NCBI GenBank assembly: GCA_903826405.1
Contig: CAIKEH010000049.1
Location: forward strand, 1 to 49,229
Length of the DNA: 49,229 nt
Direction: 5' to 3'
Source: an uncultured bacterium
GTDB taxonomy: Bacteria > Bacteroidota > Bacteroidia > Chitinophagales > Chitinophagaceae
Notes under the pieces: generated by a model
Seen by the model: the letters and a program-made list of their open reading frames with translations, nothing else
What the model was told of the DNA's origin: nothing
Database searches by the model: none
Shown: positions 7,963-26,333 of the stretch, in pieces
Numbering within the stretch: position 1 is the first letter of the stretch
Layout of the letters: the number at the start of each line of letters is the position of its first letter
Program-made: the position numbers and the translations under genes

Positions 7963-10008
7963 TTACTGAACCTTGACCACTCCACGCATCACCAGGTAAT
8001 GCCCGGGATAAGTGCATACATAAGGATACTGTCCCGGTTTATCCGGCGCAGTGAAATATATGGTATCCGACTCCTTCGGATGCAATAGTATTGTATGCAC
8101 CAGTACTTCAGGCATGGAGGGTATGAAACTCATCTTTTCTCCATCCAATCCCAATTTGAGTGCCGCCCCGCCTATCTTGTCAGCCGAGCCCGGCTTTCCG
8201 ATCACGAAATTGTGCAGCATGTCGTCGTTATTATTGAAAACGAGTTTCACACGTGCTCCGGGTTTCACACTGAAGGTTTCCAGATCGAATTTCAACCCGG
8301 GTTTGGTAGCGATCACAATGACCTGATCAGGTCCTTTCTTCCAATCAGATGGTTGCCGCGTGACCCGCTTGGCGGATGCTTTCTGCGGGACAGGCTTACC
8401 CGATTCCGCTGCCATGGCTTGGTGATCATGCATGGCCATGGGAACCACCTTATTCTCAGCTGTGATGGCGAGTTTGTCACCATCCGGGAAACGGTTCAAC
8501 GTATAATAGCCGTATGCATGCAACAGGGGCTTGCTGGAAGATGAGCGTACCCCTTCCGCCCGGATCTCATGGATATATCCCAGTCGCAAGCTGTCCACTA
8601 CAAGGCGAACACTCATGCGGTCCGGAGAAACCGTGATGGCACGGATCGGGCAAGTACCCTGATTGATCACCGGGCTGCCATATTGATGATGATACATATA
8701 GGTGAAGCTGCCGATCTTCCAGGACATGACATCCTTCGCTGTTTTCTCATTCACCGGTTCAGTGAAGGTAAACTCAAATCCGTCTGGCCTGGCTTGCACG
8801 GTCTTCATTTCAAATGGCGTCTTGCCATTCCACACCAATTGCTGCAAACCATAAAGTCCTCCCCCATCGGATGACCATCCCCGTGAGGTCATGCCCACGA
8901 ACATGCTGCCATCCGAACCCCAGACCTGACGCAGGATACCCGAAGAAAAACCTTCCCGGAACGGGAACACGATTCCTTGGTATACGCCTTTGACTTTTTC
9001 CAAATAAACGCGCATGATCTTGCTCTGTCCCTGATCACCAACGAAAAGCTGTCCTTCGAAAGGCCCCATCTTTCCATGCTGATCATAATTGAGAATGGCC
9101 GATGTGGATATGCCCAGTATGGTGTGTGGGAACCATACGGAGGGTGGTTTAAGTCCGGGTACGCGAAGGGCTACATCATATTTGGGCTCGTCATTGTCCG
9201 GGAGATCGGACTTCTTCAACTTCACTGGAGAACCGGGCTCTCCAGCCCAGACGAGTCCGCCGGGATTGCCCAGGAAATCTCCTTCCGCGACATGGGTGAT
9301 GCTTCCCGATCCGACCCAATCACCCTGATTCTCGGCGTAGAACATATCACCCTGATCGTTGAGCCCGAAACCTGCCGGCGACCGCAGCCCCGTCGCGAAT
9401 GGTTTGATGGTGCCATCCCGATCGACCCTCAACATCCACCCATGCCATTTGGATAAACTGGCACCATACCCTATCCAGCCCAAGTTCAGGTTGACCATCA
9501 TGTTGCCATTTTTATCCAACACAGGCCCATAAGCATACTCATGGTAATTGCCCGATAGAGGCCAACTCGTAACAGTTTTATATTCATCGGCTTCACCGTC
9601 GCCGTCCAGATCACGCAGGCGGGTGAGCTCGGCTCGTTGGGTGAGGTATAGATCCCCATCGATATAATTCAATCCGAGAGGCTCATGCAAACCTTGTGCG
9701 AACAATTTGTAACTAGGCAGTTTGCCACCCTTCATATAGGGATCATGGATGATCCAGACTTCACCCTTCCGTGTGCATACGGCAAGGGCATCATCGGACA
9801 TGAAAGCAAGTCCGCCGACTTCAAGCGAAATATGTTCTGGAATACGCACCGTCCTGATCTGATAATAATCCTCCTCTTTGGGTGCACCGGTACCGGTATC
9901 TTTTGACGCCTTTTGAGAAAAGCCGTGAAGACAGAATATCAATAAGCAAAACGAGGTCATCCAAAGATGCATGGTCCTGCGGTTCGTGGGCATATACTGG
10001 GATTTCAT
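7963..10008 (-). CDS. Secreted beta-propeller protein fused to an azurin-like copper domain
   Basis: Residues about 40-410 form a six-bladed-propeller-type domain of the PQQ/sorbosone-dehydrogenase-like or PVC family (RDLDGDGEADEY, GLRSPAGFGLNDQGDMFY, LFVGDQGQSKIMRV). After a linker, residues about 570-681 form a type I copper domain. His599 (MLHNF) and Cys665-x4-His670-x3-Met674 (YVCTYPGHYLVM) are the azurin/auracyanin ligand set. The N-terminus carries a signal peptide; Met6 or Met13 are possible starts. The product probably sits in the periplasm, and the copper domain suggests electron transfer from or to the propeller or the cytochrome c proteins of the same operon. It is the last gene of the twelve-gene block, 9 nt after the DUF1080 gene. 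The substrate is not known. Confidence 0.87.
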   Translation of the reverse strand: MKSQYMPTNRRTMHLWMTSFCLLIFCLHGFSQKASKDTGTGAPKEEDYYQIRTVRIPEHISLEVGGLAFMSDDALAVCTRKGEVWIIHDPYMKGGKLPSYKLFAQGLHEPLGLNYIDGDLYLTQRAELTRLRDLDGDGEADEYKTVTSWPLSGNYHEYAYGPVLDKNGNMMVNLNLGWIGYGASLSKWHGWMLRVDRDGTIKPFATGLRSPAGFGLNDQGDMFYAENQGDWVGSGSITHVAEGDFLGNPGGLVWAGEPGSPVKLKKSDLPDNDEPKYDVALRVPGLKPPSVWFPHTILGISTSAILNYDQHGKMGPFEGQLFVGDQGQSKIMRVYLEKVKGVYQGIVFPFREGFSSGILRQVWGSDGSMFVGMTSRGWSSDGGGLYGLQQLVWNGKTPFEMKTVQARPDGFEFTFTEPVNEKTAKDVMSWKIGSFTYMYHHQYGSPVINQGTCPIRAITVSPDRMSVRLVVDSLRLGYIHEIRAEGVRSSSSKPLLHAYGYYTLNRFPDGDKLAITAENKVVPMAMHDHQAMAAESGKPVPQKASAKRVTRQPSDWKKGPDQVIVIATKPGLKFDLETFSVKPGARVKLVFNNNDDMLHNFVIGKPGSADKIGGAALKLGLDGEKMSFIPSMPEVLVHTILLHPKESDTIYFTAPDKPGQYPYVCTYPGHYLVMRGVVKVQ

Positions 10009-10017
10009 GGAAACGAC

Positions 10018-11442
10018 TTAAAAAATGATGGAATAGGACAGCGTGGCAGTGGACTTGTCGATCGGTACGAGTAATTCCTTACCCGTAGCCGTGGTTCGGA
10101 TGACCGGCTTGTAACGATCGTCCAATCTGATATAATAATCTCGATCCCCGACGACATACATGTTCTTGCCGCTAGGTGTGATCATCTTGCCCGTGGCTAC
10201 CCTGCAATATAAATTACCTATGGGATCCTTCACGGTCAACTCCCGCTTGATTCCCTGAACATCGGTACCGGATATCTTATCTGATACGTTGATGCCTTTA
10301 TAGGAATATTGGAAGTTGGGTGTACGATCGACGTCCAGAGTGTACCCTTGATTACGAAAATCATCGAATGCGATCGAATCGGGCCAGTTGGAACCGGGTT
10401 CGGGCAGAACGGCGATGGCTGGTGCATCGTTCAGCACGATGAGGCTTCCCCTTGGCTTCGCCAGCTGGGGCTCGCCCCGTTCATGCCACATTTCCGTGAC
10501 GTTCAGATAATCTCCCCTCCAGATCTGGAATAATGCCCCCTGCTTGAGGTCGTATGAATAATTCACCTTATTCGGATGACCGTAAGAGATCACATGCGTG
10601 AGTTTTTTATCTCCGTACATCAGGTAACTACGAAGCAGGTACGGCTTTCCGGTAGCATCCAACAGGATGGGATCATCAGTTCCCATATTTTGTGCGATAG
10701 ATACGGGTGTGCTGAATCTGATGTTGCGGAAGGCCACATTCCCATGATCGCCCTGTAACATGAGCGGACCCTTTGCACTTTCCTCCTTGAAAAAAGCCGC
10801 TCTCGTAGGACCCGTAAGACGTATACCCGATTGGACCAAAGAGCCATTCAGGTAAACTTCATCAAATCGGGCATTACCGATCTTCACGCCCTTGTCGTCG
10901 AAACGGGGAGCGCGGAAGATGATCTTCAAATGCTGCCAGAGTCCGGGCGCCCTTGATGCATTTTGCAGGGGGGCAGATCCTTCATAACCCTCATTGTCTT
11001 TCCCCCTTGCATCATCCCAACGTTGATAGATGCCCCCACAATCAGAAAAACCTACCCTGGGTAATGTCCAACTATCGAATAATTGCACCTCGTACCTTCC
11101 TTGCAGGTATACGCCGGAGTTGGAGCCCTTTGCCATCATGAAGTCCAGTTCAAGCTGAGCATCACCGAATTCATCTCGGGTGAGCAGGTTCATGTTCTCT
11201 CCACCCGCAGCGACCAAATTCACCAGTGCACCTTCCCCGGGCACGGCTTTCATATCTCCATTGATGGATGGGTCAGCCGTGGCATTGGAAGCGATCACCC
11301 AGTTCTTGCCCGTGGGCCGAAATGAACCGAGATCGCGTAAAGAAATTCCGTTCTGCTCGCCGGACTGTTGCGAAAAAACTCCGGGTGAAATGGCTATAAC
11401 GAATGAGCATACAGCCAAGGTCCGTTTAAATTGGATCTTCAT
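10018..11442 (-). CDS. Secreted DUF1080 protein with an extra C-terminal domain
   Basis: The start at 11442 gives a signal peptide (MKIQFKRTLAVCSFVIAISP) and 474 aa; the frame is open to 11463. Residues about 30-245 match DUF1080 (PF06439, named 3-keto-disaccharide hydrolase), a concanavalin-like fold: LELDFMMAKGSNSGVYLQGR, YEVQLFDS, GNVAFRNIRF. Residues about 260-474 are a further domain of strand-rich sequence (LLRSYLMYGDKKLTHVISYG, FQIWRGDYLNVTEMWHERG) that I cannot assign. DUF1080 members are linked to cleavage of 3-oxidised glycosides, which suits the Gfo/Idh/MocA, ThuA and epimerase genes upstream. It lies 59 nt after the M1 peptidase gene. The fold is well supported; the reaction is inferred. 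Confidence 0.85.
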   Translation of the reverse strand: MKIQFKRTLAVCSFVIAISPGVFSQQSGEQNGISLRDLGSFRPTGKNWVIASNATADPSINGDMKAVPGEGALVNLVAAGGENMNLLTRDEFGDAQLELDFMMAKGSNSGVYLQGRYEVQLFDSWTLPRVGFSDCGGIYQRWDDARGKDNEGYEGSAPLQNASRAPGLWQHLKIIFRAPRFDDKGVKIGNARFDEVYLNGSLVQSGIRLTGPTRAAFFKEESAKGPLMLQGDHGNVAFRNIRFSTPVSIAQNMGTDDPILLDATGKPYLLRSYLMYGDKKLTHVISYGHPNKVNYSYDLKQGALFQIWRGDYLNVTEMWHERGEPQLAKPRGSLIVLNDAPAIAVLPEPGSNWPDSIAFDDFRNQGYTLDVDRTPNFQYSYKGINVSDKISGTDVQGIKRELTVKDPIGNLYCRVATGKMITPSGKNMYVVGDRDYYIRLDDRYKPVIRTTATGKELLVPIDKSTATLSYSIIF

Positions 11443-11501
11443 GTGTTGATGTGATGATGTCATTTATTATGGTTCTGTGATACGCTAATTTTTTTATGGA
11501 T

Positions 11502-13148
11502 TCAGCCTCGGCTGAATTCCATTTTCGCCAGCAATACATTCCGAGGATCAATGACCAGTTTCTCCGGGCTGCCTTCCATCGGTATGCTGAACATCGTTTT
11601 CTTCCCATTGATCCGGAACTTCCTGATCTCCGGCGCCTGGGAATCGGTTGAATATACTCCTAATTCAACGGGGAGATCGAAGATCATGTTCCCACGTTGT
11701 GCCTGCTCGATGGAAATATCCACTTGCTTTCTGCGCTTGTCGTAGGTCCACTTTCCCTTTAGAACGGGATTCTCGGGATGATAGAGCCACTGTTCAAAGG
11801 TTGATGTCAAGTCTTTCCCGCTGGCTTTCTCCATCTCCTCCATGAAATCACGGGTGGTGGCACTTCCATTGAAGTGCGCTGCATAATAAGAGCGAATACC
11901 TTTCCGAAAAGCATCATGCCCGATCATATCCCGGAGCATGTACAGGAACCATGCCCCTTTCTGATAGGTGATCCCACTGGTCACAGGTTGAATTTCTGCT
12001 GTCCGGTCCGCGATGATGCTGAATGTACTGTCCCGGGACGCTATATCATATATCGTTTTTCTAGCCTTGAGCAGGCCAGACTCGAATTCATCATGCCCAT
12101 AGGCATTCTCGATGAAGAGCAAGGTGAAGAAAGTCGCGAAGCCTTCACTCAGCCAGGCGTCATCCCATGTGCTTTCCGTGACGGCATTCCCGAACCATTG
12201 GTGCGCCAGTTCGTGGATGACGACGTTCCGCAAACGCACATCCCTTTTGCCATTGACCAGATCTTCTCCGTAAAAAATGGCGGAAGACGTTTCCATGCCG
12301 CCGCCGATGCTCGGCGACTGTATATTGGCTACTTTCTCATAAGCATAAGGTCCCACATAATCAGAGTAGAATCGGATCACATCCTTTGTGGGTTCGGCGA
12401 AATCATAAAAACCGGCTTCCCTGTTCTGCGGATGAACCCAGGTCTGAATGGAACGTCCATCAACCTCACCTACATATTGAATGGCGAATTCGGAAACACC
12501 CAGAACATACAACCAACAGGAAACTGGTACCGATTGCTTCCAGTGTGTCAATCTCGTCCGCGCATCGATGTTCGACTCTTCCAGAAGGAGTCCATTAGAA
12601 ACCACTTTGTAATGCGCCGGTGCCTTTACGATGAACTCCGAAGTAGCCTTGATATATGGATGATCGATGGTAGGTAGCCACTGCCTCGTCTTATTGGGCC
12701 AGTTCTCTACGAAGAAACTACGGCTGCCGAATTGGGTGGGACCGATTTTCAAACCGTCCGCCGGCATGCCATGATACCTGATGACGAAGACCCATATGGT
12801 TCCCGGTTCCGCAGCACTCGACCAATCGAGCAGCAATTCATCGCCGGTGTGTGAGAAATGTATGGGCTGCCCTTTCAGCGTGATGGACTCTACGACCATA
12901 CCTTTACCATTCCTTTCCGGGGTACGACCTGCCAGGTCAAGCCTCAGTTTCCGTACATCCTTGTCCTTGAACAGCACGGAAACAGATGTCTGTCCGAATA
13001 TCTCATCGGTACTGTCCGACAGGGTCAGCTCGAATGCATAGTGTTTGATATCTATGGATCGATTGATCGGATATTTGTCCGCGCGTACCTGCTGGGTCAA
13101 GCAGATCAAGGCGGAAAAAAAGATCAGGTGAACGATCCTTCCATGCAT
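11502..13148 (-). CDS. Secreted M1 family metallopeptidase
   Basis: A zinc aminopeptidase of the gluzincin type. The zinc site is complete: HELAH at residues 312-316 and the third ligand Glu335 in WLSEGFATFF. The exopeptidase motif appears as GGMETS (283-288), where Thr replaces the usual Asn. A signal peptide (about residues 1-23, MHGRIVHLIFFSALICLTQQ) predicts a periplasmic or surface location. At 548 aa it has the N-terminal beta domain and catalytic domain but lacks the large C-terminal domain of pepN-type enzymes, and a short beta-rich tail ends the protein. It sits inside the sugar operon, 28 nt after the second DUF1080 gene, which is an unexpected partner. Confidence 0.92.
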   Translation of the reverse strand: MHGRIVHLIFFSALICLTQQVRADKYPINRSIDIKHYAFELTLSDSTDEIFGQTSVSVLFKDKDVRKLRLDLAGRTPERNGKGMVVESITLKGQPIHFSHTGDELLLDWSSAAEPGTIWVFVIRYHGMPADGLKIGPTQFGSRSFFVENWPNKTRQWLPTIDHPYIKATSEFIVKAPAHYKVVSNGLLLEESNIDARTRLTHWKQSVPVSCWLYVLGVSEFAIQYVGEVDGRSIQTWVHPQNREAGFYDFAEPTKDVIRFYSDYVGPYAYEKVANIQSPSIGGGMETSSAIFYGEDLVNGKRDVRLRNVVIHELAHQWFGNAVTESTWDDAWLSEGFATFFTLLFIENAYGHDEFESGLLKARKTIYDIASRDSTFSIIADRTAEIQPVTSGITYQKGAWFLYMLRDMIGHDAFRKGIRSYYAAHFNGSATTRDFMEEMEKASGKDLTSTFEQWLYHPENPVLKGKWTYDKRRKQVDISIEQAQRGNMIFDLPVELGVYSTDSQAPEIRKFRINGKKTMFSIPMEGSPEKLVIDPRNVLLAKMEFSRG

Positions 13149-13176
13149 GTCGCGACTTATTTAAAGGTGAATGGAC

Positions 13177-13935
13177 TTATCCTTTCTTGTACCTGATGTT
13201 ACGATATTCCACTTTCATCGAGGGCATAACATGCACCTGCAAAGCAATGACACCGTCTGCCTTTCTGGCCGTGGTGTCGTTATCCGTGGCGTCGCTCATC
13301 AGAATACCATTTATATAATGCTTGAGTCGATTCCCTTTCGCAGTGATGTATATCTCATTCCAGTCGTTGACTTTGATCTTCGCTTTCAGGGAATCCGAAT
13401 TTCCGAGGGAATCGGTGATGATGGGCTTCTGTCCGGCTTCGAGTGTGACCACCTGCCCACGCATGGCCAGGAAACCCCGACCGCGTTCCTCATAATTCTG
13501 TCCCGTATATACATTCGCCCCGTCGATATCCGCCTGATATCCTTTCACGGCAAAAGGAATATCCTTCAATTCCTCACTGCGGTATTGGACACCACTGTTA
13601 CCTCCTTCACTGATTCGGTATTCTGCTTTGAATTCAAAATCCGAAGGTTTTTCAGCGCGCCAGATCAGGAATGAATTGGTCTTGATCTGTTTTTGTGCTG
13701 TGACCTCACCGATAAAACTACCTCCCTCAACCCTCCATACACTGGTATCAGCATCCCATCCCTGGAAAGTTTTGCCATCGAAGATCTGTGTGAAACCATC
13801 CTTGTCTGAGATGGTGGTATCCACGCCCGCTACGGTCTCCTGCTTGGGAGCATCGGAGCAACTCGTCATGATCAATACGATTGCAGGAAGGAAGGAAAAA
13901 CGGAGCAGTTGATTGAAGATCTTGTACTTTCTCAT
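13177..13935 (-). CDS. DUF1080 lipoprotein (3-keto-disaccharide hydrolase family)
   Basis: The start at 13935 is chosen because it gives a lipoprotein signal (MRKYKIFNQLLRFSFLP then IVLIMTSC) with the lipidated Cys at about residue 26; the frame is open to 14079 but that part overlaps the preceding gene. The mature protein is a single DUF1080 domain: FTQIFDGKTFQGWD, VWRVEGGSFIG, FEFKAEYRISEGGNSGVQYR, LKHYINGILMSD and the closing strand VEYRNIRYKKG. Members of PF06439 act on 3-keto glycosides. It is predicted to be membrane-anchored outside the cytoplasm. Placed directly downstream of a Gfo/Idh/MocA dehydrogenase, it would be a natural next step after C3 oxidation, but compartments differ unless intermediates are exported. 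Confidence 0.88.
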   Translation of the reverse strand: MRKYKIFNQLLRFSFLPAIVLIMTSCSDAPKQETVAGVDTTISDKDGFTQIFDGKTFQGWDADTSVWRVEGGSFIGEVTAQKQIKTNSFLIWRAEKPSDFEFKAEYRISEGGNSGVQYRSEELKDIPFAVKGYQADIDGANVYTGQNYEERGRGFLAMRGQVVTLEAGQKPIITDSLGNSDSLKAKIKVNDWNEIYITAKGNRLKHYINGILMSDATDNDTTARKADGVIALQVHVMPSMKVEYRNIRYKKG

Positions 13936-13993
13936 GTTGGGTTCTATATTGTGATGATCAATTACAGGCTGATTATCCTGTGGACTGTTGTTA

Positions 13994-15139
13994 TCATATG
14001 CCAGTACGTTTCCACGAACCGGAATGCGCCGAATCAAAAACGGCCTGACACACCTTCTGCGTCTCGTGGGCTTCGGCAAAAGTGGGTGAGCAGTTCTTAC
14101 CTGTCTCCAGACTTTCCAGGAAATCAGCCACCTGATGCACGAAGGAGTGCTCGTAGCCGATACCTAATCCGGGTACCCACCATTTATTCATGTAAGGCTG
14201 ATCCCCATCGGTAACATGGATCGAACGCCATCCCCTGACAATGGATTCATCGGAGTTGTCGAAATACTGCAGCCTGTTCAGGTCGTGCAGGTCCCAACGT
14301 ATGGAGGCGTCGGCGCCATTGATCTCGAAAGTATACAGGGCCTTGTGGCCACGTGCGTAACGGGTGGATTCGAACAAGCCAAGAGATCCATTGTTGAACC
14401 GGCACATGAAAGAGCAGGCGTCATCGATCGTTACTTCCTGCATTTTGCCCGTGACCTGGTGCATACGTTCCTTCACGAATGTTTCCGTCATGCCGTTCAC
14501 GTCGCTGATGCCTCCGTTCAGCCACATGGCTGTATCGATGCAGTGCGCAAGCAGATCTCCGAGTACGCCGGAGCCGGAGACGGCTGCATCCATGCGCCAT
14601 AATCCCGTTCCACCCTGTGGCAGGTTGGCATTGATGGTCCAATCCTGCAGGAACTGGGCGCGGTAATGGAAGATCTTTCCCAACTTTCCTGAAGCAATGA
14701 TCTGCTTCGCCAGGGTGACCGCCGGGATCCGTCGGTAGTTGTACCAAACCGTATTGGCCACACCGGCCTTGGCGATGGCATCGACCATACCCTGTGATTC
14801 CTGAAGGTCACGCGCCAATGGTTTTTCGCATAGGACCATCTTCCCCGCTGCCGCTGCGGCCCTGGCGATCTCCGCATGCGTATCATTGGGAGTGCAGATG
14901 TCAACGGCATCGATATCATCGCGCAGGACCAACTTCCTCCAATCGGTTTCATAGGAAGCATAGCCCCATTGTTCCGCGAATGCTTTCACGCTATCCTCAT
15001 TACGTGCGCAGGCTGCCTGCAATACAGGTCTGTACTGGAGTGCGGGAAAGAAATCCCCGACCCGTTTGTATCCGTTGGTATGCGTTCTGCCCATGAAACC
15101 GCATCCTATCAATCCTATCCTGAGTTGTTTTTTTTCCAT
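13994..15139 (-). CDS. Cytoplasmic Gfo/Idh/MocA family oxidoreductase
   Basis: An NAD(P)-dependent sugar dehydrogenase of 381 aa. The start at 15139 is preferred over 15166 because [17 protein letters not shown] then begins directly with the first beta strand and the Rossmann GxGxxG (GCGFMG). The family motif EKP is in [11 protein letters not shown] (Lys is the usual catalytic base), and [16 protein letters not shown] provides the Asp and His of the active site. No signal peptide is present, so it should act in the cytoplasm. Related enzymes such as ThuB oxidise or reduce C3 of sugars. It stands between a TIM-barrel isomerase gene (42 nt upstream) and a DUF1080 gene, consistent with keto-sugar metabolism. 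The exact substrate is unknown. Confidence 0.92.
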
Positions 15140-15181
15140 TTTATATGCTGATTTATGACTCTTCATTCATGTTTCCCGCAT

Positions 15182-16228
15182 TCATTCGGCTTCGTACCAG
15201 CCATGTTTTTCCCGTACGCTGACCAGGGCGGCGAGTATATCGTTCCAGGTTTTCTGTTGTTCCATCACCGAGTTGGGAAACATGCAACCATCCCAGCAAA
15301 TGTGGCGGAACGCTTTAGTCAAGCTACCATCTTCGTTGCGCAGCCAGTGTCCGGCATCCTCGGCGATGTTCAATCTTCCGTTCGGATCTGTAGCCAGGCA
15401 ATGCCGTCCGGTCTTGTCATGTGAACCGGTTCCATGCACTGTACCATCGTTCTGAGCTACGTGGAAATCGATGGTCCATGGGCGGAGGGCCTTGGTGAGG
15501 GTCTTCAGCCCCTCGGTCAATGCCGCACGATCGCCCCATTGGAAATCCACAGGGAGGATCCTGTCTTCCGGACTGTTGTATCCGAGCAGATAAAGTAAAG
15601 TATGTGCCATGTCTGCCTGGAACCCGATATTGGTTCTATCGACGGCTTCAAGGGTATCCAACATGGCCTTCCAGCTGTGCATGCCACCCCAGCAGATCTC
15701 TCCTTCCGCAGCCAATCTTTCACCGTAGTCGGCAGCCACGTCACACGCTTCGCGGAATGTTGCAGCAATGAGTTTGGTATTCCCTGCGGGGTCAACGGAC
15801 CAGGTTTCCGGATTGGTTGCGGAATCTATCCGTACGATGCCATTGGGCCGTACTCCGAGTTCACGAAGTTTCTGTGCGAAGCGGCAACTCTTCTTCACCT
15901 GTTCCACGAAACGGTTCCTGTCCTCACGGCTACCCATGGCCGAACCTCCCTCAGGTGGCCAGATCGGCGCCACGATACTGCCGATGTTCAGGTGCAGTGC
16001 CGATACTTTGTCTGCCAACGCTTTGATGCCATCGTCCGTACTGTCGACGGGAACGTGGGGATCGAAGAGCCCGATGTCTATGCCATCGAATTTCACGCCA
16101 CCGACCTCAGCATTCGCGGTCATGGTCAGCAGGCTGTCCAAAGAGATGAAGGGCTCCGATCCGGGGCCTTTGCCCACCACGCCGGGCCAGGTGGCATTGT
16201 GCAGTTTGGGATAATTGTTGCTTTGCAT
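15182..16228 (-). CDS. Xylose-isomerase-like TIM-barrel sugar isomerase/epimerase
   Basis: A 348-aa protein of the sugar phosphate isomerase/epimerase (AP_endonuc_2) family without a signal peptide. Candidate metal ligands and substrate-contact residues are visible in order: Glu of [13 protein letters not shown], Asp/His of [13 protein letters not shown], and His of [16 protein letters not shown]. The N-terminal segment [20 protein letters not shown] is typical of a longer subgroup that often occurs beside Gfo/Idh/MocA genes. It probably isomerises, epimerises or dehydrates a (keto)sugar in the cytoplasm. It is 23 nt downstream of the ketose 3-epimerase gene and 42 nt upstream of the dehydrogenase gene, within the same operon. 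Confidence 0.87.
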
Positions 16229-16251
16229 ATCGTTTGTTTATGAATGAGCGG

Positions 16252-18055: not shown

Positions 18056-21000
18056 TTATTTTAGGCCCGGATGCTCCTTGAGCAATTCCTCCGGGGTATA
18101 AAATCCAGTCTTGTTCTTGATCGACGCCCGGACCTGCTTCACCTTGTCCGCCTTCACTTCCGGCGCCTTGTTGCCGAACGCATTCCGCACATAGGTGAGT
18201 ACCGAGGCCACTTCCTCATCCTTCAACATTCCTTCGAATGGCGTCATGGGCACCTGACCGGGATATTTCTTTCCATTCACTTCAATAGGTCCGTACATGC
18301 CTTTCAACACCATCTTGATCAGGCGATCCTCGCTGCCGGTCACCCATTTGGACCCTTTCAGTGGAGGGAAGCCCGAAGCATCCAGTCCTTTCCCATCTGG
18401 CTGATGGCAGGTGGTGCAATACCCTTCCTTCATATATATGGCCTTCCCCTTTTGCATCACGCTTCCACTGATGCCGTTCGTGGTTGTTTTTGTTGTTTTC
18501 TCTTCCTCAGATGCCACACCATGACCTTCCAGATGCGCAACGGCCGTTTCATGTGCCTTTGTCATCCAGGAATCCATAGGCTTCTTCGCTGCCGCAGCTT
18601 CAATCGGCAATCCTTTTTCTTTGTTCAGCCAGGAGGCGGAAACGATGGCTTCCAGCCGAACCCTGCCGCTTTCGTCCTTGGCGGCCTGCATCAGCAATTC
18701 GGCCTGATCGGGTAATTGCCTCTCATTGAAGCGTACCACTTCCACTGCCGCGGAACGGATCCTGAAGTCCTTTGCCTGCAAGAGTTTCCGCAGGATTTTT
18801 TGATCCACCTTATCCTGTCCCCAACTGACCCATAACCCTTCCAAAAGCAATTTTTCATAGTTGGGGGAGTTCCGGTCCAGTTGATCGATCCACTGCTGCA
18901 GTTTGGGCAGCACCTCATTGGCACCATGCGCACGGAGTTCTCGGCGGGTCCGGTAACGTGTCCGGTATTCGGGCAGTTTCAGGTTCTCGAGCAACTGCTC
19001 CACACTCGCCCCTGCGATCTTTGCAGGCACCACCAATGGCCGGGATGGATAAGTTATCCTGTAGATGCGGCCGTGCGAATGATCCCTCAATGGATCGCGT
19101 GCATTATGCTGCATGTGGCCGATGAGCACATTGTGCCAGTCTGCTATGTACAAGGATCCGTCCGGAGCGAATTCCAGATCCACCGGACGATAATTGAAAT
19201 CGGAAGATTTGACCAGGTCCTGTCTGAATCGACTCTTATATCCGGTACCATCATCTTCAAGAGTATGCTCTTTGGTTCCCAGGAAGCCAATGGTGTTGTT
19301 GATCAGCATATCCCCCTGTACTTCGGGAGGGAAATGACGGCTGGAGATGAACTCTAATCCGGATGTGGGTCGAACGCGTTGCGCTTCCTCGATCAGGCTG
19401 ATCGCCTTGGGTGTGTATTCACCATAACGCGACTTCACCGTTCCCGGCATCATCCAGGTCACATCGGGACCGGATGTCTCGGCATAAAATACCTGTCCCC
19501 ACTCATCAAAGGCGATGCCCCAGGGGTTTGGGATGGACAGTTGCGCGATCCTGTCCAATTTCTTGTTCTTGGGATCATATCTGAAGAAACCACCGTTGGT
19601 GCCGCGGACAGGTCCATAGGAAGTTTCAATATCGTTGACCAGGAATACTCCCTGTCCCATGTAGATGGCGCCGGAAGGGTCGGTCGTATAAGCATGGTGC
19701 GCGTGATGCGTATCGTGGTCGTCGAATCCACTGAGGAGGATCTCGCGGGTATCCGCCTTGTCATCTCCATCCAGATCCCTCAATAACATGAAGTTTGTGC
19801 CCTGCGAAAGATATACACCTTCGGGCGCCAACTCGAAACCGAGTGGCAACTGGAGTTTGTCCGCAAAAACGGTCTCCTTGTCGGCCTTGCCGTCGGCGTC
19901 CGTATCCTCGAGGATGATCAGCTTGTCATCGGGCTTGGGATCACCTGGCCTCCAATGCGGATAGGTGGGCATGACGGCAACCCATAGACGACCTTTGTTG
20001 TCGAAGGAAATCTGAACGGGTTTGGCCAGATCGGGGAATTCCGTCTCTGAAGCAAAGAGGTCGATCTTGTAGCCGGGTGCCATCGTGAATTTATCCAATG
20101 CATCCTTGCCATACAGGTATTTCGCATCACCATGCTGATCGTCCTGCTTGTAATTGGTCTTTACGGGTGGCAGAACAGAGGTGTTCGCATCGGCTGCTGC
20201 CAGATCCATCTTCTCGCCATGAGCGGCTTTCCAGATAGCCTCATCCCGGATGAGGGTCATCTCCCTGATCTTCTTGAGTTCCGCCGGATAGTTGTCGGGA
20301 CCAAAGGGATCGTACCTTCTGCCGAAGACGTGCACCCCATTGGGCGCTTTGAAATCATTATGCCACATCCAGTCCTTTTCCAGCACGGCGGCCATGACAA
20401 GTGAGCGGTTGGCTTCTGACGTGGCGGGGGATCTGCCGAATGCCTCATCTACCAGGAAAGGACTGAATTTTGCATAACCAGCATCCGTCAGTTGGGATCC
20501 ATCGATCGTGAGGTCGGTCGATTCATCCGAGAACCAACTCTTCGAAGGGGAGTATGCATCAATGAAGAGCACCTTGTTCTTTGCGGCCACTTCCTTCATC
20601 GCATCCTTGTAGAGGGAAAGGTTTTCGTTTTCCACTTTACCATTGGGGAGGTCGAATTTTTTCGACAGGTCTTCGAATGCGATCGGCGACACAATCGCAA
20701 GTTGCGGTGCGGAAGCACCATTATATTTCTGCTTCAGGGTATGTTTGATGAATGCATCCAGCTCCGCCTTGTAATTCGCCAGACCGGCCTTGCCTTGAAA
20801 GGATTCATCGTATCCGAACAGGGCGATGATGATGTCGGCCTTGTGCTTGGTGATCCATTCATCGGGATATTCGAGAAAACCCTCAGTACCCGGACTGGTC
20901 GCCAATTCCGTCTGGAATTTTTCGGCACCGGGGAATGCCCATGGCGTGGGTCGTCCGGAATGGGGGCGGAAACCCGGGGTATTGCCACCATCACACATGT

Positions 21001-21220
21001 TCCGGACATAAAGCATACTATCGGGATAGCGTACCTGCAATTCGGTTTCGAAGTAGCCGTAGTTCATCATGCGTGAACCCAGGTTGTTGCCGATCAGAAT
21101 GATGTGCGATCCTTTTCTGATCCTGAGCTTCGGGTTGCCCGGCGACATGGATGCCAATGCCAGAACGATCACTACGGCCAGGAATGCCAGCAAGGGATCA
21201 CCTTTTTTGAAAATGGACAT
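18056..21220 (-). CDS. PVC-type fusion: degenerate SGNH domain, beta-propeller, HEAT-like region and cytochrome c
   Basis: A 1054-aa exported protein. After an N-terminal hydrophobic segment (about 9-25), residues about 38-260 resemble an SGNH/GDSL hydrolase, but the catalytic blocks are changed: GNNLGS replaces GDSxxxG and DGSQLTDAGY has Gln where the His is expected. Residues about 375-740 form a beta-propeller of the membrane-bound-dehydrogenase type (LEDTDADGKADKETVF, GIAFDEWGQVFYAETSG, FAPDGSLYIADWHN). A helical HEAT-like part follows (about 755-880). The C-terminal cytochrome c domain has CTTCH at 935-939 and a candidate axial Met at 992 (QVPMTPF). It probably passes electrons outside the membrane; the substrate is unknown. 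It is gene four of the operon. Confidence 0.88.
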   Translation of the reverse strand: MSIFKKGDPLLAFLAVVIVLALASMSPGNPKLRIRKGSHIILIGNNLGSRMMNYGYFETELQVRYPDSMLYVRNMCDGGNTPGFRPHSGRPTPWAFPGAEKFQTELATSPGTEGFLEYPDEWITKHKADIIIALFGYDESFQGKAGLANYKAELDAFIKHTLKQKYNGASAPQLAIVSPIAFEDLSKKFDLPNGKVENENLSLYKDAMKEVAAKNKVLFIDAYSPSKSWFSDESTDLTIDGSQLTDAGYAKFSPFLVDEAFGRSPATSEANRSLVMAAVLEKDWMWHNDFKAPNGVHVFGRRYDPFGPDNYPAELKKIREMTLIRDEAIWKAAHGEKMDLAAADANTSVLPPVKTNYKQDDQHGDAKYLYGKDALDKFTMAPGYKIDLFASETEFPDLAKPVQISFDNKGRLWVAVMPTYPHWRPGDPKPDDKLIILEDTDADGKADKETVFADKLQLPLGFELAPEGVYLSQGTNFMLLRDLDGDDKADTREILLSGFDDHDTHHAHHAYTTDPSGAIYMGQGVFLVNDIETSYGPVRGTNGGFFRYDPKNKKLDRIAQLSIPNPWGIAFDEWGQVFYAETSGPDVTWMMPGTVKSRYGEYTPKAISLIEEAQRVRPTSGLEFISSRHFPPEVQGDMLINNTIGFLGTKEHTLEDDGTGYKSRFRQDLVKSSDFNYRPVDLEFAPDGSLYIADWHNVLIGHMQHNARDPLRDHSHGRIYRITYPSRPLVVPAKIAGASVEQLLENLKLPEYRTRYRTRRELRAHGANEVLPKLQQWIDQLDRNSPNYEKLLLEGLWVSWGQDKVDQKILRKLLQAKDFRIRSAAVEVVRFNERQLPDQAELLMQAAKDESGRVRLEAIVSASWLNKEKGLPIEAAAAKKPMDSWMTKAHETAVAHLEGHGVASEEEKTTKTTTNGISGSVMQKGKAIYMKEGYCTTCHQPDGKGLDASGFPPLKGSKWVTGSEDRLIKMVLKGMYGPIEVNGKKYPGQVPMTPFEGMLKDEEVASVLTYVRNAFGNKAPEVKADKVKQVRASIKNKTGFYTPEELLKEHPGLK

Positions 21221-21276
21221 GTATGATTGTTTGGGGTTGATGGCTTACAATGTTGATTTTTTATTCACAGGAACGA

Positions 21277-22491
21277 TCACAGTACCATGTCCGGGTTGCC
21301 GGGTCCGAAATGTTTGAGGATGACGATCGGATCCGTGGCGGAGCCATTGACGATCTTCACCCCTTCCATAGCCGCTTTTTCACTGATGAAAAATTCATCA
21401 TTGGTCAACTGACCATACCTGATGAGTGCGGGAGTTTCTATGTCCCATACACCCATCTTACCGTGTCCCTGCATGACGATGATACCATAGGCTGCACTGT
21501 CCTTGATGGTTACCGTTTGCCCGGGCAGCACGGTCAGTTCCTTCGCTCCGAAGGCATCTGATTTGTAGCATATCCAATTCTCGATATAGCCCTGGGCTTC
21601 CATATCGGCTTTCGGACGAACAGGTTTGGGAGCCATGAATCGGTTCTGATACTGATGCGTGTCTAAGTTGAGGTCCCAGTCGATGACATCGAGCAATGCT
21701 TCATAGTCACCAATGCTTTCCTTGGGCGTTCCGTTCCAGAGCAGCTCCTCTGGTATGATGGCCTCGTTAACGAGTGATTGATACATGGCGAAGACATCCG
21801 AAGCCTTCTGGGGTTCATAGGTACACAGGCTGCCCGGTGCATGGAGCAGTCCCGGTGGTACATCCCATCCCGTTCCCGGCTCCAGGAGGTATGCCTGGGA
21901 TAGATTGGTGATCTTGTTATCGCCCTTGGTGAAATTCTTGAGGCATTCCCTGATCTGAGCGCGGGTCGTTCCCGGCGCCAGCCCCATGAAGGTGTAGGGA
22001 AAATCTCCACCGTGGTTGTTGAGTTGAGGAGGGAAGTAATAAGCTTCGGGTTTGCCGAGTTGGCCGATCAATGCGGCCTTTTCATCATTATGATGCACAT
22101 GGTGAGGCAGTGGCCCCATGTTGTCGAAGAACTTGGAATACATGGGCCAGGAATGATATTGATTCCAAAGGCGGTCACCGATGATGCGGCCTTGCAGGAT
22201 ATCGATGGCATCCTTGAGCAGGAATTGCACTTCCTGACCACCATCTTTGAATACGACCGGACTCAACCCTTCATTGACACCGGTGAGTGGTCCGTTCTTG
22301 GCCGGCGTGGTGGAGGATAGCCAACGTTCATCTATGCCCCCGCGGTTGCCGCCCAACACATAATAATCGTCGGGATGGAGTTTGATGCGGCGGCCAGGTA
22401 CGCAAAAAGATCGGGGCACCCATGTAGGGGCCAGTCGGAGTATGCCATTACCCTGCTCGAGTGCCTTTTCTGCCTGTTGTTGTGTTCCCAT
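21277..22491 (-). CDS. Cupin-fold protein, mannose-6-phosphate-isomerase-like
   Basis: The start at 22491 (405 aa, MGTQQQAEKALEQGNG) is preferred; the frame is open to 22548. It shows two cupin-like parts. The first has a His cluster suited to metal binding (GPLPHHVHHNDEKA, about 120-133) and a downstream WDVPPGLLHAPGS. The second, near the C-terminus, has ELTVLPGQTVTIKDSAAYG and IIVMQGHGKMGVWD. There is no signal peptide. The closest recognisable shape is a class I mannose-6-phosphate isomerase or a related sugar isomerase, which fits the sugar operon, but dioxygenase-type cupins are possible. It lies 71 nt after the DUF4432 gene, the longest gap in the block. Confidence 0.75.
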   Translation of the reverse strand: MGTQQQAEKALEQGNGILRLAPTWVPRSFCVPGRRIKLHPDDYYVLGGNRGGIDERWLSSTTPAKNGPLTGVNEGLSPVVFKDGGQEVQFLLKDAIDILQGRIIGDRLWNQYHSWPMYSKFFDNMGPLPHHVHHNDEKAALIGQLGKPEAYYFPPQLNNHGGDFPYTFMGLAPGTTRAQIRECLKNFTKGDNKITNLSQAYLLEPGTGWDVPPGLLHAPGSLCTYEPQKASDVFAMYQSLVNEAIIPEELLWNGTPKESIGDYEALLDVIDWDLNLDTHQYQNRFMAPKPVRPKADMEAQGYIENWICYKSDAFGAKELTVLPGQTVTIKDSAAYGIIVMQGHGKMGVWDIETPALIRYGQLTNDEFFISEKAAMEGVKIVNGSATDPIVILKHFGPGNPDMVL

Positions 22492-22562
22492 GGATGGTGA
22501 ATGTTTGTTTGGGTTTTGTTTTATGGTTGGACCGACGGGATCTCCCATCCGGTACCTGATGT

Positions 22563-23633
22563 CTAGTCATATGTGGCCAAGAAACCTGCAATGCTTTCCT
22601 TGTCATGATATAATTCCACTTCGAGGTGGTAATCCCTTCGCTCACCGGGGGCCAGAAAGACCAGTGTCTTATCTTTCCTCGCCTGTGCCTGACCGATAGG
22701 TGGATGTGTGCCGGGCTCGAGTGCAGTGACATATTCGCCCCTGCCCCAATGTTGCCAGTTCGTAAGCCAGGGCAATTCTTCCTTCCGGAATCGAAGGGCC
22801 AGTCCAAGCCCTATCTTGCCATTGTACAAACCGCAACTGCAACTTCCCGATACATCGGGAATGGGATCGATGATCCCCACTTCCTCGCCATTCGCGGAGT
22901 GCTCCTTCATCGGTGCCGGGCATTTTCGGAAGTTATGTCCATCCCGGAAGATCAGGTTATCTGCACTGTCAAAACGGGGCTTGCAATCCCCATTCCAGAG
23001 TAAGTCCGTGCCCTCGTCCACCAAAGGCCAACCGAAATTGCAATGATACAGCAGCATATGCGGGGCAGATGTATTGCCGATGTTCACCACTTCGTCATGG
23101 ATACGGATAACGGGACGTCCTATGGTACAGGTGATTGTTCTTTTCAATTCCAATGCGGGACCGAACAAGGGTGCTATCCTCGTGATGCCGGTAATGCCCA
23201 TGTCCATTCTTCCCTTTGCAGGATCGGGTTGGATGATGGATTGCAGTTCCGCGGGCTGATTGCTGTATTCTCCATGAAGACCACGTTGGCCGAACTCGTC
23301 CTGCTCCGGTCCACCCACATGAGTGAGGCCGCAAGTGGTCAGCAATCCCCCTCCGAAACCCTGCAGCCAGTCCACTCCTTTATTATAGGATGGCTGCGGT
23401 GAGGTGATGCCGGCATGAGATAACCAGGCCAGTCCGAACTGGTTGAAGAAGGCATCGGCTATATCCATGCCCCGGTCTATGACCACTTTGAACCGAAGGC
23501 CTGAACCGGTATTGATCCAGGCTATACGTGTACCCCTGGCCGGACCATTTTCCAGCACCATCAGTTCTATACCGCCGAGTTGTGCAGGGCTGCTGATCTT
23601 GCCTTGCCATTCAGGAATTGACTGGGCGTTCAT
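22563..23633 (-). CDS. DUF4432 (aldose 1-epimerase-like) protein
   Basis: A 356-aa protein without signal peptide, matching DUF4432 of the galactose-mutarotase fold. Typical segments are VVIDRGMDIADAFF near residues 50-65, GLLTTCGLTHVGGP, QRGLHGEYSNQPAE and the strand MLLYHCNFGWPLVDEG. The aldose 1-epimerase superfamily acts on sugar anomers, and this branch may also bind or isomerise ketohexoses. It is only 6 nt downstream of the cytochrome lipoprotein gene, so the two are surely cotranscribed. A mutarotase would prepare a sugar for the dehydrogenase and epimerases of the same operon. Substrate unknown. Confidence 0.87.
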   Translation of the reverse strand: MNAQSIPEWQGKISSPAQLGGIELMVLENGPARGTRIAWINTGSGLRFKVVIDRGMDIADAFFNQFGLAWLSHAGITSPQPSYNKGVDWLQGFGGGLLTTCGLTHVGGPEQDEFGQRGLHGEYSNQPAELQSIIQPDPAKGRMDMGITGITRIAPLFGPALELKRTITCTIGRPVIRIHDEVVNIGNTSAPHMLLYHCNFGWPLVDEGTDLLWNGDCKPRFDSADNLIFRDGHNFRKCPAPMKEHSANGEEVGIIDPIPDVSGSCSCGLYNGKIGLGLALRFRKEELPWLTNWQHWGRGEYVTALEPGTHPPIGQAQARKDKTLVFLAPGERRDYHLEVELYHDKESIAGFLATYD

Positions 23634-23639
23634 GAGTGC

Positions 23640-26333
23640 CTATGGCTTTTTAGGTGCGAATACGGAATCCTTGGGATTGCCACCGGATTTGAGATAAGCC
23701 AGCAGGTCCTTTAGTTCTTCCTCATTCAATCGATTGATCAGGCCGGACAGCATCACGGAGCTTTCCGATTTCCTCGTATGGTCGACGTCCTTCTTGGGAA
23801 TGTCCCGAAGGGTCTGCATCGCGAAAGGATTCTGTGCGATAGAATACTTGTCGCCTTCCTGGCTCATGAGATTACCCACGACGGAAGTGCCGTCCTTGAG
23901 ATAGAAGACGGTGGATGCATATTGATCGGAGATCGTTTTGCTCGGTTCGATGATGGATTCCAGCATGTCCTTGTAGGAGAATCGGGTACCCACCTGAGTC
24001 AGGTCGGGACCGATGCCTCCGCCTTCCCCACGCATGCCGTGGCAGTTGATGCAGAGGCTGGAACTGAACATGGCCTTACCCTGCTCGAAGTTGCGGTTGG
24101 AGAGGCCGTTTTTCACGAGAGCCAATGCTGTATCCACTTCCCAGTCCTTACCGGGGCCCTTGGGTTGCTTCATGTTGGGAGCCAATCCCATAAATGCACG
24201 GGCGACGAGTGAATCACCAGATATGGTATTGAAATAAGCGAGCTTCTCCCCAGGTACGTTGGCGAGGGCTTTCTTGCGGGCCAGGTCAATGAACCCGATG
24301 AAACTATGTCCACCTTTATATCCGAATGCGCTATAGAACCATTTGAAATATTTTTCGCGGTTCTCAGGTGTCCATCCGGTTTTGGCCTGACTCAACACGG
24401 TAGCATAATAGGTCTGCTGACGCGGGGGTACATTGGAGAGCATCTTAGCAATATCCAGTCCATAACCGGGGTTGCGCAGGATGAGGTCCGCTGAATTGGT
24501 GAAGGTCTTCTGGTCATTGGGGTCGTCCTTGGCGGTGGCCATCAGTTCCATCGTCTTGGCTACGGCAGTGGGTGATTCCAGCGCTACGAGCACCTTTGCC
24601 AGCGAACGGTTCAGGTCGTTGGAGGTAGCGGGATACTGCTTATCCAAATAACTGTTCACGGCGGTCCGGGCTTCACTACCGGGCATGCCTAAACGCAATA
24701 CCGCGAGTTCAAAAGCGCGGAGCAGATCCAGTTGGGCGGGTTCCTTGAGTGCACTGAAATCGATCTGAGTGAGCGCCATCATCAGTTTATCACGTTGATC
24801 CTTTCCACCCAGGCGAGCCATGGCGATGGCTGCCTGCGTCAGGGCCACGGGGTCTTTTTCTTTCATTGCCCTGTCCTTCCATTGAGCGACGGGCTGATGC
24901 TCGAGAGCGACCCGGGCCGCATAGCGAATGAACCGGTCGCTGTTGCTGAGGTATGGCCAAACGGAATCCACGGCGCCTGCCTTGGGAGCGGTGTGAAAGG
25001 ACTCCAGCATTCTGCGTGTCTTTTGCGCGTCGGTGAGTACAGCAGGTGCAAGGGCTTCGGTATTCTGCTTGTTGTCTTTATAATATACACGGTACAGGTC
25101 GGATTCGATCCGGCGGCCGCCGGTCAGGAAGTACAGTGCGCCGTCAGGACCGATGGTGCCATCTGTCAGCGGCAAGGGAGACCCGGAGATGAACTCTTCC
25201 GCCCTGGCCGTATAGGTTGCTCCGTCAGGTTGTGGCTGGATGGCATACATGATGCCGAAACTCCAGTCGAATGCAAAGATGGAACGACGGTATTTCTCCG
25301 GGAAATGGGCGTTCATGCCGCTGAACACTCCGGTCGGTGAGCCCTGACCGATATTCACCAAGGGGGGCAAGTTGTCCGCGTTGTTGGGAGACCATTTGTC
25401 CGTTCCCGGCCTCCAGCCAAATTCACCACCGCTGGTCACATGGCAGATGCGGGTGGGACGATACCAGGGGGTACCGAAATCCCATTCCATGTCGGAATCA
25501 TAAGTGAAGATATCACCTGCATCATTGAAGGCCAGATCGAAAGGATTCCGGAATCCGTTGCTGATGAGGTTGAAATCGGAACCATCAGGGCCTAATTTGG
25601 CGATCCACCCTCCATGGGTATTCACCGTATTGTCGTGACCGTTCGGGTCGCGGATGAGGGGAAGCAGGTTGTCGATCTCCCAAATGGGGAGGGAAGTGTA
25701 GTTGTCCATTTTGGGGATCTTGGTGAAGTTCCCGGCAATGATGTACAGCGACTTGCCATCGGGGGATAAGACGATGCTGTGCGGGCCATGTTCGCCGTCG
25801 CCTTCCAATTTTTTCAACAAAGTGATCTTGTCGTACTGATCATCGTTATCCGTATCCTGTAAACGATAAAGTCCACTGGGTTTGGAGTTCGCAGTATCTC
25901 CTTCATCGTTGACCATAACGTACAGGCTGTTGAAGGCATATAGCAGGCCATGGGCATATCCTATCCTGCGAGCCCGGGAAGTTGTGTCGCCCGGAAGTTT
26001 AAGCACCAGGCTGTCGATCTTGATTTTCATCTTGGAGGTATCCGAACCTACGGGGGGGATGCTCAATCGATAAAGATTACCGTACTGATCGGAGGTGATC
26101 ATCCTTTGCTTGTCATCGAAAGTCATGGCCACCCAGGAACCCCTGTTGTCCATACCCGGACTGTACAGATGGTCTGCGTGGAAATCCGCTGGCAGTTTCA
26201 GCGCGGCTATCTTGGGGTCTGAGGAGACCGCTACGGTTGAACCCTGATCAGCACCATTCTTACAGGCAGCGGAAATCAGGATCAGGACGAATAACAAAAA
26301 ATGGAATGGGACAGAACGGAGTTTCCTGTTCAT
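23640..26333 (-). CDS. PVC-type beta-propeller/HEAT/cytochrome c lipoprotein
   Basis: An 897-aa lipoprotein (signal with lipobox-like ISAAC, lipidated Cys at about residue 24). Residues about 45-420 form a sugar-dehydrogenase-like beta-propeller (YRLQDTDNDDQYDKITLL, GFRNPFDLAFNDAGDIFTYD, TDGTIGPDGALYFLTGGRR). Residues about 440-700 are helical HEAT-like repeats. The C-terminal cytochrome c domain carries CINCH at 761-765, GEGGGIGPDLTQVG and a candidate axial Met near 861. Proteins of this layout are frequent in PVC bacteria and also occur in Bacteroidota. It is the first gene of the twelve-gene block and probably marks its promoter side. A redox role outside the cytoplasm is likely; the donor is unknown. 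Confidence 0.9.
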   Translation of the reverse strand: MNRKLRSVPFHFLLFVLILISAACKNGADQGSTVAVSSDPKIAALKLPADFHADHLYSPGMDNRGSWVAMTFDDKQRMITSDQYGNLYRLSIPPVGSDTSKMKIKIDSLVLKLPGDTTSRARRIGYAHGLLYAFNSLYVMVNDEGDTANSKPSGLYRLQDTDNDDQYDKITLLKKLEGDGEHGPHSIVLSPDGKSLYIIAGNFTKIPKMDNYTSLPIWEIDNLLPLIRDPNGHDNTVNTHGGWIAKLGPDGSDFNLISNGFRNPFDLAFNDAGDIFTYDSDMEWDFGTPWYRPTRICHVTSGGEFGWRPGTDKWSPNNADNLPPLVNIGQGSPTGVFSGMNAHFPEKYRRSIFAFDWSFGIMYAIQPQPDGATYTARAEEFISGSPLPLTDGTIGPDGALYFLTGGRRIESDLYRVYYKDNKQNTEALAPAVLTDAQKTRRMLESFHTAPKAGAVDSVWPYLSNSDRFIRYAARVALEHQPVAQWKDRAMKEKDPVALTQAAIAMARLGGKDQRDKLMMALTQIDFSALKEPAQLDLLRAFELAVLRLGMPGSEARTAVNSYLDKQYPATSNDLNRSLAKVLVALESPTAVAKTMELMATAKDDPNDQKTFTNSADLILRNPGYGLDIAKMLSNVPPRQQTYYATVLSQAKTGWTPENREKYFKWFYSAFGYKGGHSFIGFIDLARKKALANVPGEKLAYFNTISGDSLVARAFMGLAPNMKQPKGPGKDWEVDTALALVKNGLSNRNFEQGKAMFSSSLCINCHGMRGEGGGIGPDLTQVGTRFSYKDMLESIIEPSKTISDQYASTVFYLKDGTSVVGNLMSQEGDKYSIAQNPFAMQTLRDIPKKDVDHTRKSESSVMLSGLINRLNEEELKDLLAYLKSGGNPKDSVFAPKKP

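Follow-up and report, generated by a model that had tools for sequence, protein, structure and literature searches.

A Chitinophagaceae operon that joins propeller-cytochrome and propeller-cupredoxin genes to putative keto-sugar enzymes

Why should genes for sugar enzymes be interleaved with genes for exported proteins that carry haem or copper? The question is raised by contig CAIKEH010000049.1 (49,229 nucleotides; hereafter the window, meaning the whole stretch of DNA analysed) from an uncultured member of the Chitinophagaceae, in which twelve minus-strand open reading frames (ORFs) occupy positions 7963-26333, from g12, transcribed first, to g1, transcribed last. We observed conserved linkage of these genes, a division of their products between compartments, invariant haem and copper motifs, frequent pairing with DUF1080 proteins and, in a structure model of g9, a propeller fold like that of soluble pyrroloquinoline quinone (PQQ) glucose dehydrogenase (sGDH). 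We tentatively read the locus as a two-compartment oxidative glycoside pathway, plausible rather than probable, in which an exported arm for oxidation and splitting would feed a cytoplasmic arm of isomerases and a reductase. The genes, in order of transcription, are as follows.

g12: 23640..26333, minus strand, lipoprotein-like beta-propeller with helical repeats and cytochrome c (TIGR02603, 100 bits against a cut-off of 68.15)
g11: 22563..23633, minus strand, DUF4432 protein, aldose-1-epimerase-like with a mutarotase fold (PF14486, E 1.2e-93; 3ty1, a hypothetical aldose 1-epimerase, E 5.5e-31)
g10: 21277..22491, minus strand, possible cupin-type sugar isomerase (weak mannose-6-phosphate isomerase profile matches, E about 0.1)
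g9: 18056..21220, minus strand, SGNH-like region, DUF7133 propeller, HEAT repeats and cytochrome c (PF23500, E 5.1e-70; PF00034 above cut-off)
g8: 17141..18019, minus strand, exported ThuA-like protein (PF06283, 41.7 bits against a cut-off of 33.4)
g7: 16252..17112, minus strand, TIM-barrel epimerase/isomerase-like protein, xylose-isomerase-like (PF01261, E 1.5e-42)
g6: 15182..16228, minus strand, second, divergent xylose-isomerase-like TIM barrel (PF01261, E 9.6e-12)
g5: 13994..15166, minus strand, NAD-type Gfo/Idh/MocA oxidoreductase on the levoglucosan-dehydrogenase side of the family (NF052479, 330 bits against a cut-off of 650)
g4: 13177..13935, minus strand, lipoprotein-like DUF1080 protein, the final gene of a nine-gene core (PF06439, E 4.8e-39)
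g3: 11502..13148, minus strand, M1-type peptidase (PF01433, E 2.3e-41)
g2: 10018..11463, minus strand, second exported DUF1080 protein, partner of g1 (PF06439, E 1.6e-26)
g1: 7963..10008, minus strand, propeller-like region (weak match) and auracyanin/azurin-like blue copper domain (PF00127, E 1.1e-9; auracyanin A, E 1.4e-10)

From g12 to g1 the intergenic gaps are 6, 71, 56, 36, 28, 23, 15, 58, 28, 38 and 9 nt, assuming ATG starts at 22491 for g10 (where a longer frame is open up to 22548) and at 13935 for g4. The original prediction of twelve minus-strand genes separated by 6-71 nt agrees with these values. Most of the protein families it listed are borne out by Pfam or NCBIfam matches; it named 11 of the 12 and omitted the M1-type peptidase g3.

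Evidence that the sugar and cytochrome genes belong together comes from relatives. A genome collection searched with g9 yielded 242 relatives; we used the best 80 and clustered genes at 40% identity over 60% of length, so that weaker relatives score as absent. All nine genes of the core are present in 12 of the 80 loci, and in nine they are contiguous, on one strand and in the order of the window (g12-g11-g10-g9-g8-g7-g6-g5-g4). L018, L023 and L081, the last from a sample of 395 genomes of the same phylum, keep all nine but in a changed order. Three loci whose records resemble those of isolates are from Chryseolinea sp. H1M3-3 (L023, all nine genes), Pontibacter sp. E15-1 (L046, eight) and Fibrisoma limi (L031, seven). 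Since nine of its genes recur as a block, the twelve-gene arrangement is not a product of chance. In the phylum sample, g10 matches were identified in 19 genomes, 11 close (at least 485 bits) and 8 distant (233-247 bits), the latter with no strong match to other window genes around them. g12 is present in 29 of the 395 genomes and in 10 of the 11 with a close g10, a count that includes the window's own genome and leaves out the 8 with distant relatives (hypergeometric P 9e-12, nominal since the genomes are related). It lies within 6 kb of g10 in 9 of the 10 and on another contig in the tenth (G190). The association of cytochrome and sugar genes across genomes is real. The linkage proposed in the original prediction therefore holds up: it would have been refuted had the two sets never shared a homologous cluster, and they do co-occur in relatives.

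The closest g9 relatives are from metagenome-assembled genomes (MAGs) labelled Chitinophagaceae, Chitinophagales, Chitinophagia, Sediminibacterium, Chitinophaga or simply Bacteroidetes. Some loci have additions, named here from reading the sequences: a major facilitator superfamily (MFS)-like gene in L002, ATP-binding cassette (ABC)-transporter-like genes in L031 (with ORFs of equal length in L035), and SusC/SusD-like genes adjoining g12 in L081, L083, L086, L088 and L122. Loci of Eudoraea, Arenibacter, Maribacter and kin combine g6-g5 and three other dehydrogenase-like genes with g9. A g9 relative of 68% identity also occurs on a contig labelled as an Acidobacteria MAG (L036), by transfer or mis-binning.

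The last three genes behave differently. The nine-gene loci contain no orthologue of g1, g2 or g3; L004 has a partial g1 match of 27%, and the sole g3 match among the 80 g9 loci is one of 23% in L015, so that g3 is seen in the operon only in the window. Matches to g1 occur in 33 of the 395 genomes, some covering the propeller part alone. At 15 of these places the neighbourhood was examined, and 14 have a g2-type DUF1080 gene (13 adjacent to g1, one with a small ORF between). Eight other sampled genomes hold both g1 and a close g10, on different contigs in six and, in the other two, on a single contig at a distance of over 100 kb. Among the loci examined, the g2-g1 pair shares an operon with the nine genes only in the window. 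Given the absence of g1-g3 from core loci and the separate pairing of g2 with g1, the operon looks like a nine-gene core joined by a g2-g1 module and a peptidase. We reject a single twelve-gene pathway, as originally envisaged, in favour of this arrangement; what stands of that claim is the tie between cytochrome and sugar genes. Elsewhere, a g1 match of 39% was found in L071, and weak g1-profile matches (90-116 bits) lie near g12 in L087, L108, L109, L111 and L114.

DUF1080 proteins also recur beside g12. Of 30 sampled g12 places, 29 were examined (the window included, G119 left out), and a DUF1080 gene is directly adjacent in 12 of the 29 and within four genes in 2 more; in the window itself it lies further down the same operon, and the nine-gene loci have g4 eight positions after g12. 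The g9 scan supplied 18 further g12 loci, of which 3 show a DUF1080 gene no more than four genes away. These counts are lower bounds, because neighbours were sought with the g4 and g2 profiles. The g12-DUF1080 pair is found without the g10 set in L103 and L117-L120. On a Runella slithyformis plasmid, genes for an SGNH hydrolase, a c-type cytochrome distantly related to g12 and a DUF1080 protein are adjacent on one strand.

All three redox proteins retain the residues expected of their cofactor domains. The haem motif of g12 is CINCH (residues 761-765); C761, C764, H765, M861, H182, R262 and N263 are invariant in 13 aligned rows. Its TIGR02604 score (78.1) is under the cut-off. g9 has CTTCH at residues 935-939 and scores 234.5 against the TIGR02604 cut-off of 122.2, as a propeller haem protein of the type modelled from the Planctomycetes-Verrucomicrobia-Chlamydiae (PVC) group; its SGNH/GDSL-like match falls under cut-off. 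CxxCH is invariant in both proteins (29 rows for g9, 13 for g12), and each also has an invariant Met that, judged from the alignments, could be the sixth haem ligand. In g1 the type I copper ligands H599, C665, H670 and M674 are invariant in 16 of 16 rows, and the match to the propeller haem models TIGR02604/TIGR02603 (31.9) is under cut-off. One gene for a COX1 oxidase was identified in the genome, and this oxidase could take electrons from the operon's carriers.

Could the propellers be the oxidising enzymes? Only that of g9 was modelled (AlphaFold2, predicted local distance difference test (pLDDT) score 76.8), and its top Protein Data Bank (PDB) match in Foldseek is sGDH (E 3.7e-7, prob 1.00). 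Profile comparison relates this propeller to that of g12 (hhalign probability 89, E 2e-6). A parallel operon in the source genome (L127, G000:C13:238500-255041, 825-15403) offers a further comparison. On one strand it encodes MFS-like, Gfo-like and TIM-barrel-like proteins (the last by reading), a small CxxCH protein, two DUF1080 proteins and a 1135-aa protein, with SusC/SusD-like genes on the same strand after two opposite-strand genes. The 1135-aa protein comprises a ThuA-like domain, a sugar-dehydrogenase-like propeller (2ism, E 3e-18; sGDH, 5e-9) and a cytochrome c-552-like domain. Because ThuA, propeller and haem are joined in this one protein, we take it as evidence that they act together. 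The g12 propeller aligns with that of the fusion protein (hhalign probability 46, E 2e-4), and in this alignment its His182 is placed at the histidine motif of the sugar-dehydrogenase family and its Arg262-Asn263 at the Arg-Asn motif. In g9, according to its alignment with g12, Pro replaces the motif Arg.

The sGDH site comprises a catalytic His, an Arg-Asn motif and C-terminal Lys/Arg ligands of PQQ. Propeller fold and part of this site fit a dehydrogenase; a PQQ cofactor does not follow, as the site looks incomplete in our alignments. PF07995 (PQQ glucose/aldose dehydrogenase) has no match in g1, g9 or g12 even at E 10, and the sGDH fold match alone is rejected as proof of PQQ. It is conceivable that PQQ may be taken up from outside.

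Export was assessed crudely, by counting orthologues with a hydrophobic 12-residue stretch close to the N-terminus. Such orthologues are the rule for g12 (16/16), g4 (18/18), g8 (29/33) and g9 (74/76), and few or none occur for g5 (0/33), g6 (0/32), g7 (1/31), g10 (0/22) and g11 (0/20). From this split we conclude that the operon has two arms, one exported and one cytoplasmic.

The predicted enzymes of both arms suit keto-sugar chemistry to differing degrees. Both g4 and g2 exceed the cut-off of PF06439 (DUF1080), whose Pfam name is 3-keto-disaccharide hydrolase. In g5, K115, D204 and H208 are invariant (14 rows); its best PDB matches are 4h3v and then 6a3f, which we take to be a levoglucosan dehydrogenase structure. 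E147, D180, H206 and E241 of g7 are likewise invariant (14 rows), and this protein scores 145 bits with the D-psicose 3-epimerase model (cut-off 300). The more divergent g6 is 71-80% identical to 14 orthologues; a profile search of the PDB found no solved relative at E 0.01, and a search of plasmids gave no match.

For g10, the earlier label of cupin is a lead, because similarity to mannose-6-phosphate isomerase is weak and there is no Pfam match. The protein is 79-85% identical to 14 orthologues and has the highest mean column identity of four proteins aligned; its structure model (pLDDT 41.6, from an alignment too shallow and too similar) was not used. Distant g10 relatives are found in L091-L098. 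In L093 glycoside hydrolases and a small cupin are encoded nearby, together with genes read as a sugar kinase and an ABC transporter; such clusters are perhaps another pathway using the same putative isomerase family. A g10 relative of 33% identity on an Arthrobacter plasmid (NZ_CP084551.1, L131) is accompanied by genes for a ribose-type ABC transporter, dihydroxyacetone kinase, ribose-5-phosphate isomerase and triose-phosphate isomerase.

A possible course of the two-compartment pathway can be sketched; we infer the catalytic role of the propellers, the position oxidised, the direction of electron flow, the substrate and the cytoplasmic step order. Outside the inner membrane, carrier-fused propellers (haem c in g12 and g9, type I copper in g1) would oxidise a sugar hydroxyl, most likely at C3 of a glycoside, and electrons would pass from propeller to fused haem or copper carrier and on to respiration. 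The exported DUF1080 lipoprotein g4 (and g2 alongside g1) would cleave the keto-glycoside, with the exported ThuA protein g8 assisting. The keto-sugar would be imported, perhaps by products of the MFS-like or ABC-like genes found in the cluster of some relatives. In the cytoplasm, g11 may act as a mutarotase, g10 as an isomerase and g5 as a reductase using NADH; the two TIM barrels (g6, g7) may either epimerise the sugar or carry out elimination and hydration, and the sugar would return to central metabolism. This most likely order is built by analogy on outlines of the Caulobacter (PMC9007349), Agrobacterium (PMC10628242) and Bacillus smithii (PMC7676230) systems.

How does this compare with known 3-keto-sugar systems? 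DUF1080 and Gfo enzymes are shared with BT2157-BT2160 of Bacteroides thetaiotaomicron, which we take to be a 3-keto pathway and for which we know of no cytochrome partner. g5, however, is far below the cut-offs of the BT_2158 and BT_2159 glycoside 3-dehydrogenase models NF058561/NF058563 (44.5/31.7 bits; cut-offs 750/650). BT2157 is named as a 3-ketotrehalose hydrolase in an excerpt of PMC9007349. The Caulobacter lactose cluster, as outlined there (Price et al. 2022, PMC9007349), combines periplasmic 3-oxidation by LacABC with a DUF1080 hydrolase, a transporter, two epimerases and a sugar reductase. The operon likewise encodes DUF1080 hydrolases (g4, g2), but it has no LacABC-type match, and its propellers are fused to haem c or copper. 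The Agrobacterium GlycDH operon, with AtOGE, AtHYD and a Gfo protein, resembles it in combining a single Gfo oxidoreductase with two proteins similar to sugar-phosphate isomerases; by family alone, g6 and g7 may be likened to the eliminase/hydratase AtOGE/AtHYD. It differs in that its oxidase is a flavoenzyme and in that the available excerpt makes no mention of DUF1080 (PMC10628242). As in the levoglucosan pathway LgdA-LgdB1-LgdB2-LgdC (summarised in PMC7676230, PMC10066097), there are two sugar-isomerase-like TIM barrels and an LgdA-like protein, g5. This protein is nevertheless under the LgdA model cut-off, there is no second Gfo in the operon, and cytochromes are not part of the levoglucosan pathway as summarised in PMC7676230. 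Finally, 'planctomycete-specific' cytochromes of PVC bacteria and redox proteins of Teredinibacter/Cellvibrio are described, in the sections available, as carbohydrate-linked, some of them with propeller-like domains, and with function open (PMC5615132, PMC10916295). The cytochromes considered here differ in being linked to a definite group of keto-sugar genes and to DUF1080 partners. Among the literature matches listed, judged by title and abstract opening, none concerned propeller-cytochromes or cupredoxins working with DUF1080. The operon appears to be a variation on known 3-keto-glycoside systems that differs on the electron side, with carrier-fused propellers and no flavin dehydrogenase match.

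Several observations weigh against the two-compartment pathway. In the g9 match to sGDH, identity is 12% and the template-modelling (TM) score, relative to the target, is 0.48, and the g9 alignment with the fusion propeller is weak (hhalign probability 9.8). The Arg preceding Asp in E. coli 2g8s, at a position where sGDH residues presumably bind PQQ, is Ile in the fusion protein and Thr in g12. No PqqE was found above cut-off in the genome, PqqE being the only pqq gene product searched. In 28 of the 80 g9 loci, some on short contigs, g9 occurs without the other eight genes. DUF1080 was undetected within four genes of g12 in 14 of the 29 sampled loci, and one of the 15 g1 loci (L139) is without g2. 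A Teredinibacter redox protein with a propeller annotated as a PQQ dehydrogenase bound no PQQ, according to the excerpt available (PMC10916295). Lastly, Gluconate_2-dh3 genes at two other sites in the genome stand beside ORFs of glucose-methanol-choline (GMC)-like type, and could make 3-keto compounds. In L101 (G000:C43, 124-9743) five consecutive GMC-like ORFs precede a Gluconate_2-dh3 gene and a TIM-barrel-like ORF, and in L102 the other Gluconate_2-dh3 gene has a GMC-like ORF and a weak match to Gfo in its vicinity (the GMC calls come from reading the sequence, with no profile run).

These last genes lend weight to a different division of labour, in which the propeller-cytochromes are merely carriers or scaffolds and a flavin dehydrogenase of the LacABC/GlycDH type encoded elsewhere oxidises the sugar, the operon taking up electrons and keto-sugars. 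An X183 cytochrome domain is described in one case as donating electrons slowly to a lytic polysaccharide monooxygenase (LPMO), the Teredinibacter ones as donating none, in the part of PMC10916295 available. We consider this division doubtful, though worth serious attention: the modelled g9 propeller has an sGDH-like fold, and the twelve operon proteins have no GMC or Gluconate_2-dh3 match in Pfam (other ORFs of the relatives were outside the GMC-model search). Were the fold taken at face value, with glucose dehydrogenase as its top match and the g12 histidine and Arg-Asn motif aligning with the aldose dehydrogenase family, the propeller might instead oxidise an aldose at C1 to a lactone, leaving DUF1080 and ThuA with other substrates and the cytoplasmic enzymes to a sugar-acid or rare-sugar route. 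That is quite improbable to us, as DUF1080 is the recurring partner and no lactonase match in Pfam was identified among the twelve proteins. A rare-sugar or polyol cluster free of keto-glycoside chemistry, its cytochromes serving redox sensing or sugar-independent respiration, would suit the distant g10 relatives, whose neighbours are of kinase, ABC-transporter or polyol type (on the Arthrobacter plasmid and in L093, where the sequences were read and in part scanned with Pfam). It too is improbable, given that DUF1080 and ThuA recur with propellers and that the closest NCBIfam model to g5 is that of levoglucosan dehydrogenase.

If the two-compartment pathway is correct, the oxidising enzyme may belong to a type not yet characterised. 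The operon ties propeller-cytochrome genes to a small set of keto-sugar enzymes. Because g12/g4 and g1/g2 are recurrent partners, the question can be tested by two-protein assays. A broader and more speculative idea, which we regard as unlikely at present, is that these are modular extracytoplasmic sugar dehydrogenases in which an sGDH-like propeller with a non-classical PQQ site, or none, is combined with an interchangeable cytochrome c or cupredoxin acceptor and its own DUF1080 hydrolase, replacing flavin 3-dehydrogenases in Bacteroidota. The same chemistry would then involve a pair of genes well known from planctomycetes and here convergent with the operon:

PSCyt gene: 3915..6461, plus strand, PSCyt1/DUF1549/DUF1553 protein with two CxxCH motifs, convergent neighbour of the operon
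DUF1501 gene: 6379..7914 (longest ORF; the real start is more internal), plus strand, DUF1501 protein with a twin-arginine translocation (TAT)-like signal, partner of the PSCyt gene

The pair (3915-7914) recurs adjoining g12 in L007, L103 and L104, on the strand of g12 in the last two, and at the operon end in L023; these are raw sightings.

Between the convergent stops of g1 and the DUF1501 gene lies one further feature:

Hairpin: 7919..7944, 11-bp stem

The fold energy of 7908-7958 is -18.2 kcal/mol (z -3.9, beating all 200 shuffles), and the hairpin is likely, from its predicted fold and position, to be a terminator common to both transcripts. The Bacteroidota-type promoter pattern has no match 5' of g12 and one elsewhere, at chance level; scans for sigma-70 promoters and terminators gave no excess over shuffled sequence. 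The source assembly (3.585 Mb in 55 contigs, of which the window is one entire contig) contains 18 DUF1080 stretches. On the same strand as the operon and 294 nt upstream of g12, a sialidase-like BNR gene (26628-27797, minus strand) has no match in the 80 g9 loci. A second Gfo/Idh/MocA gene with a signal-like N-terminus is present at 47107-48276 (minus strand), scoring under the cut-off of the glycoside 3-dehydrogenase models; a closely similar protein is encoded right after the nine-gene block in L012.

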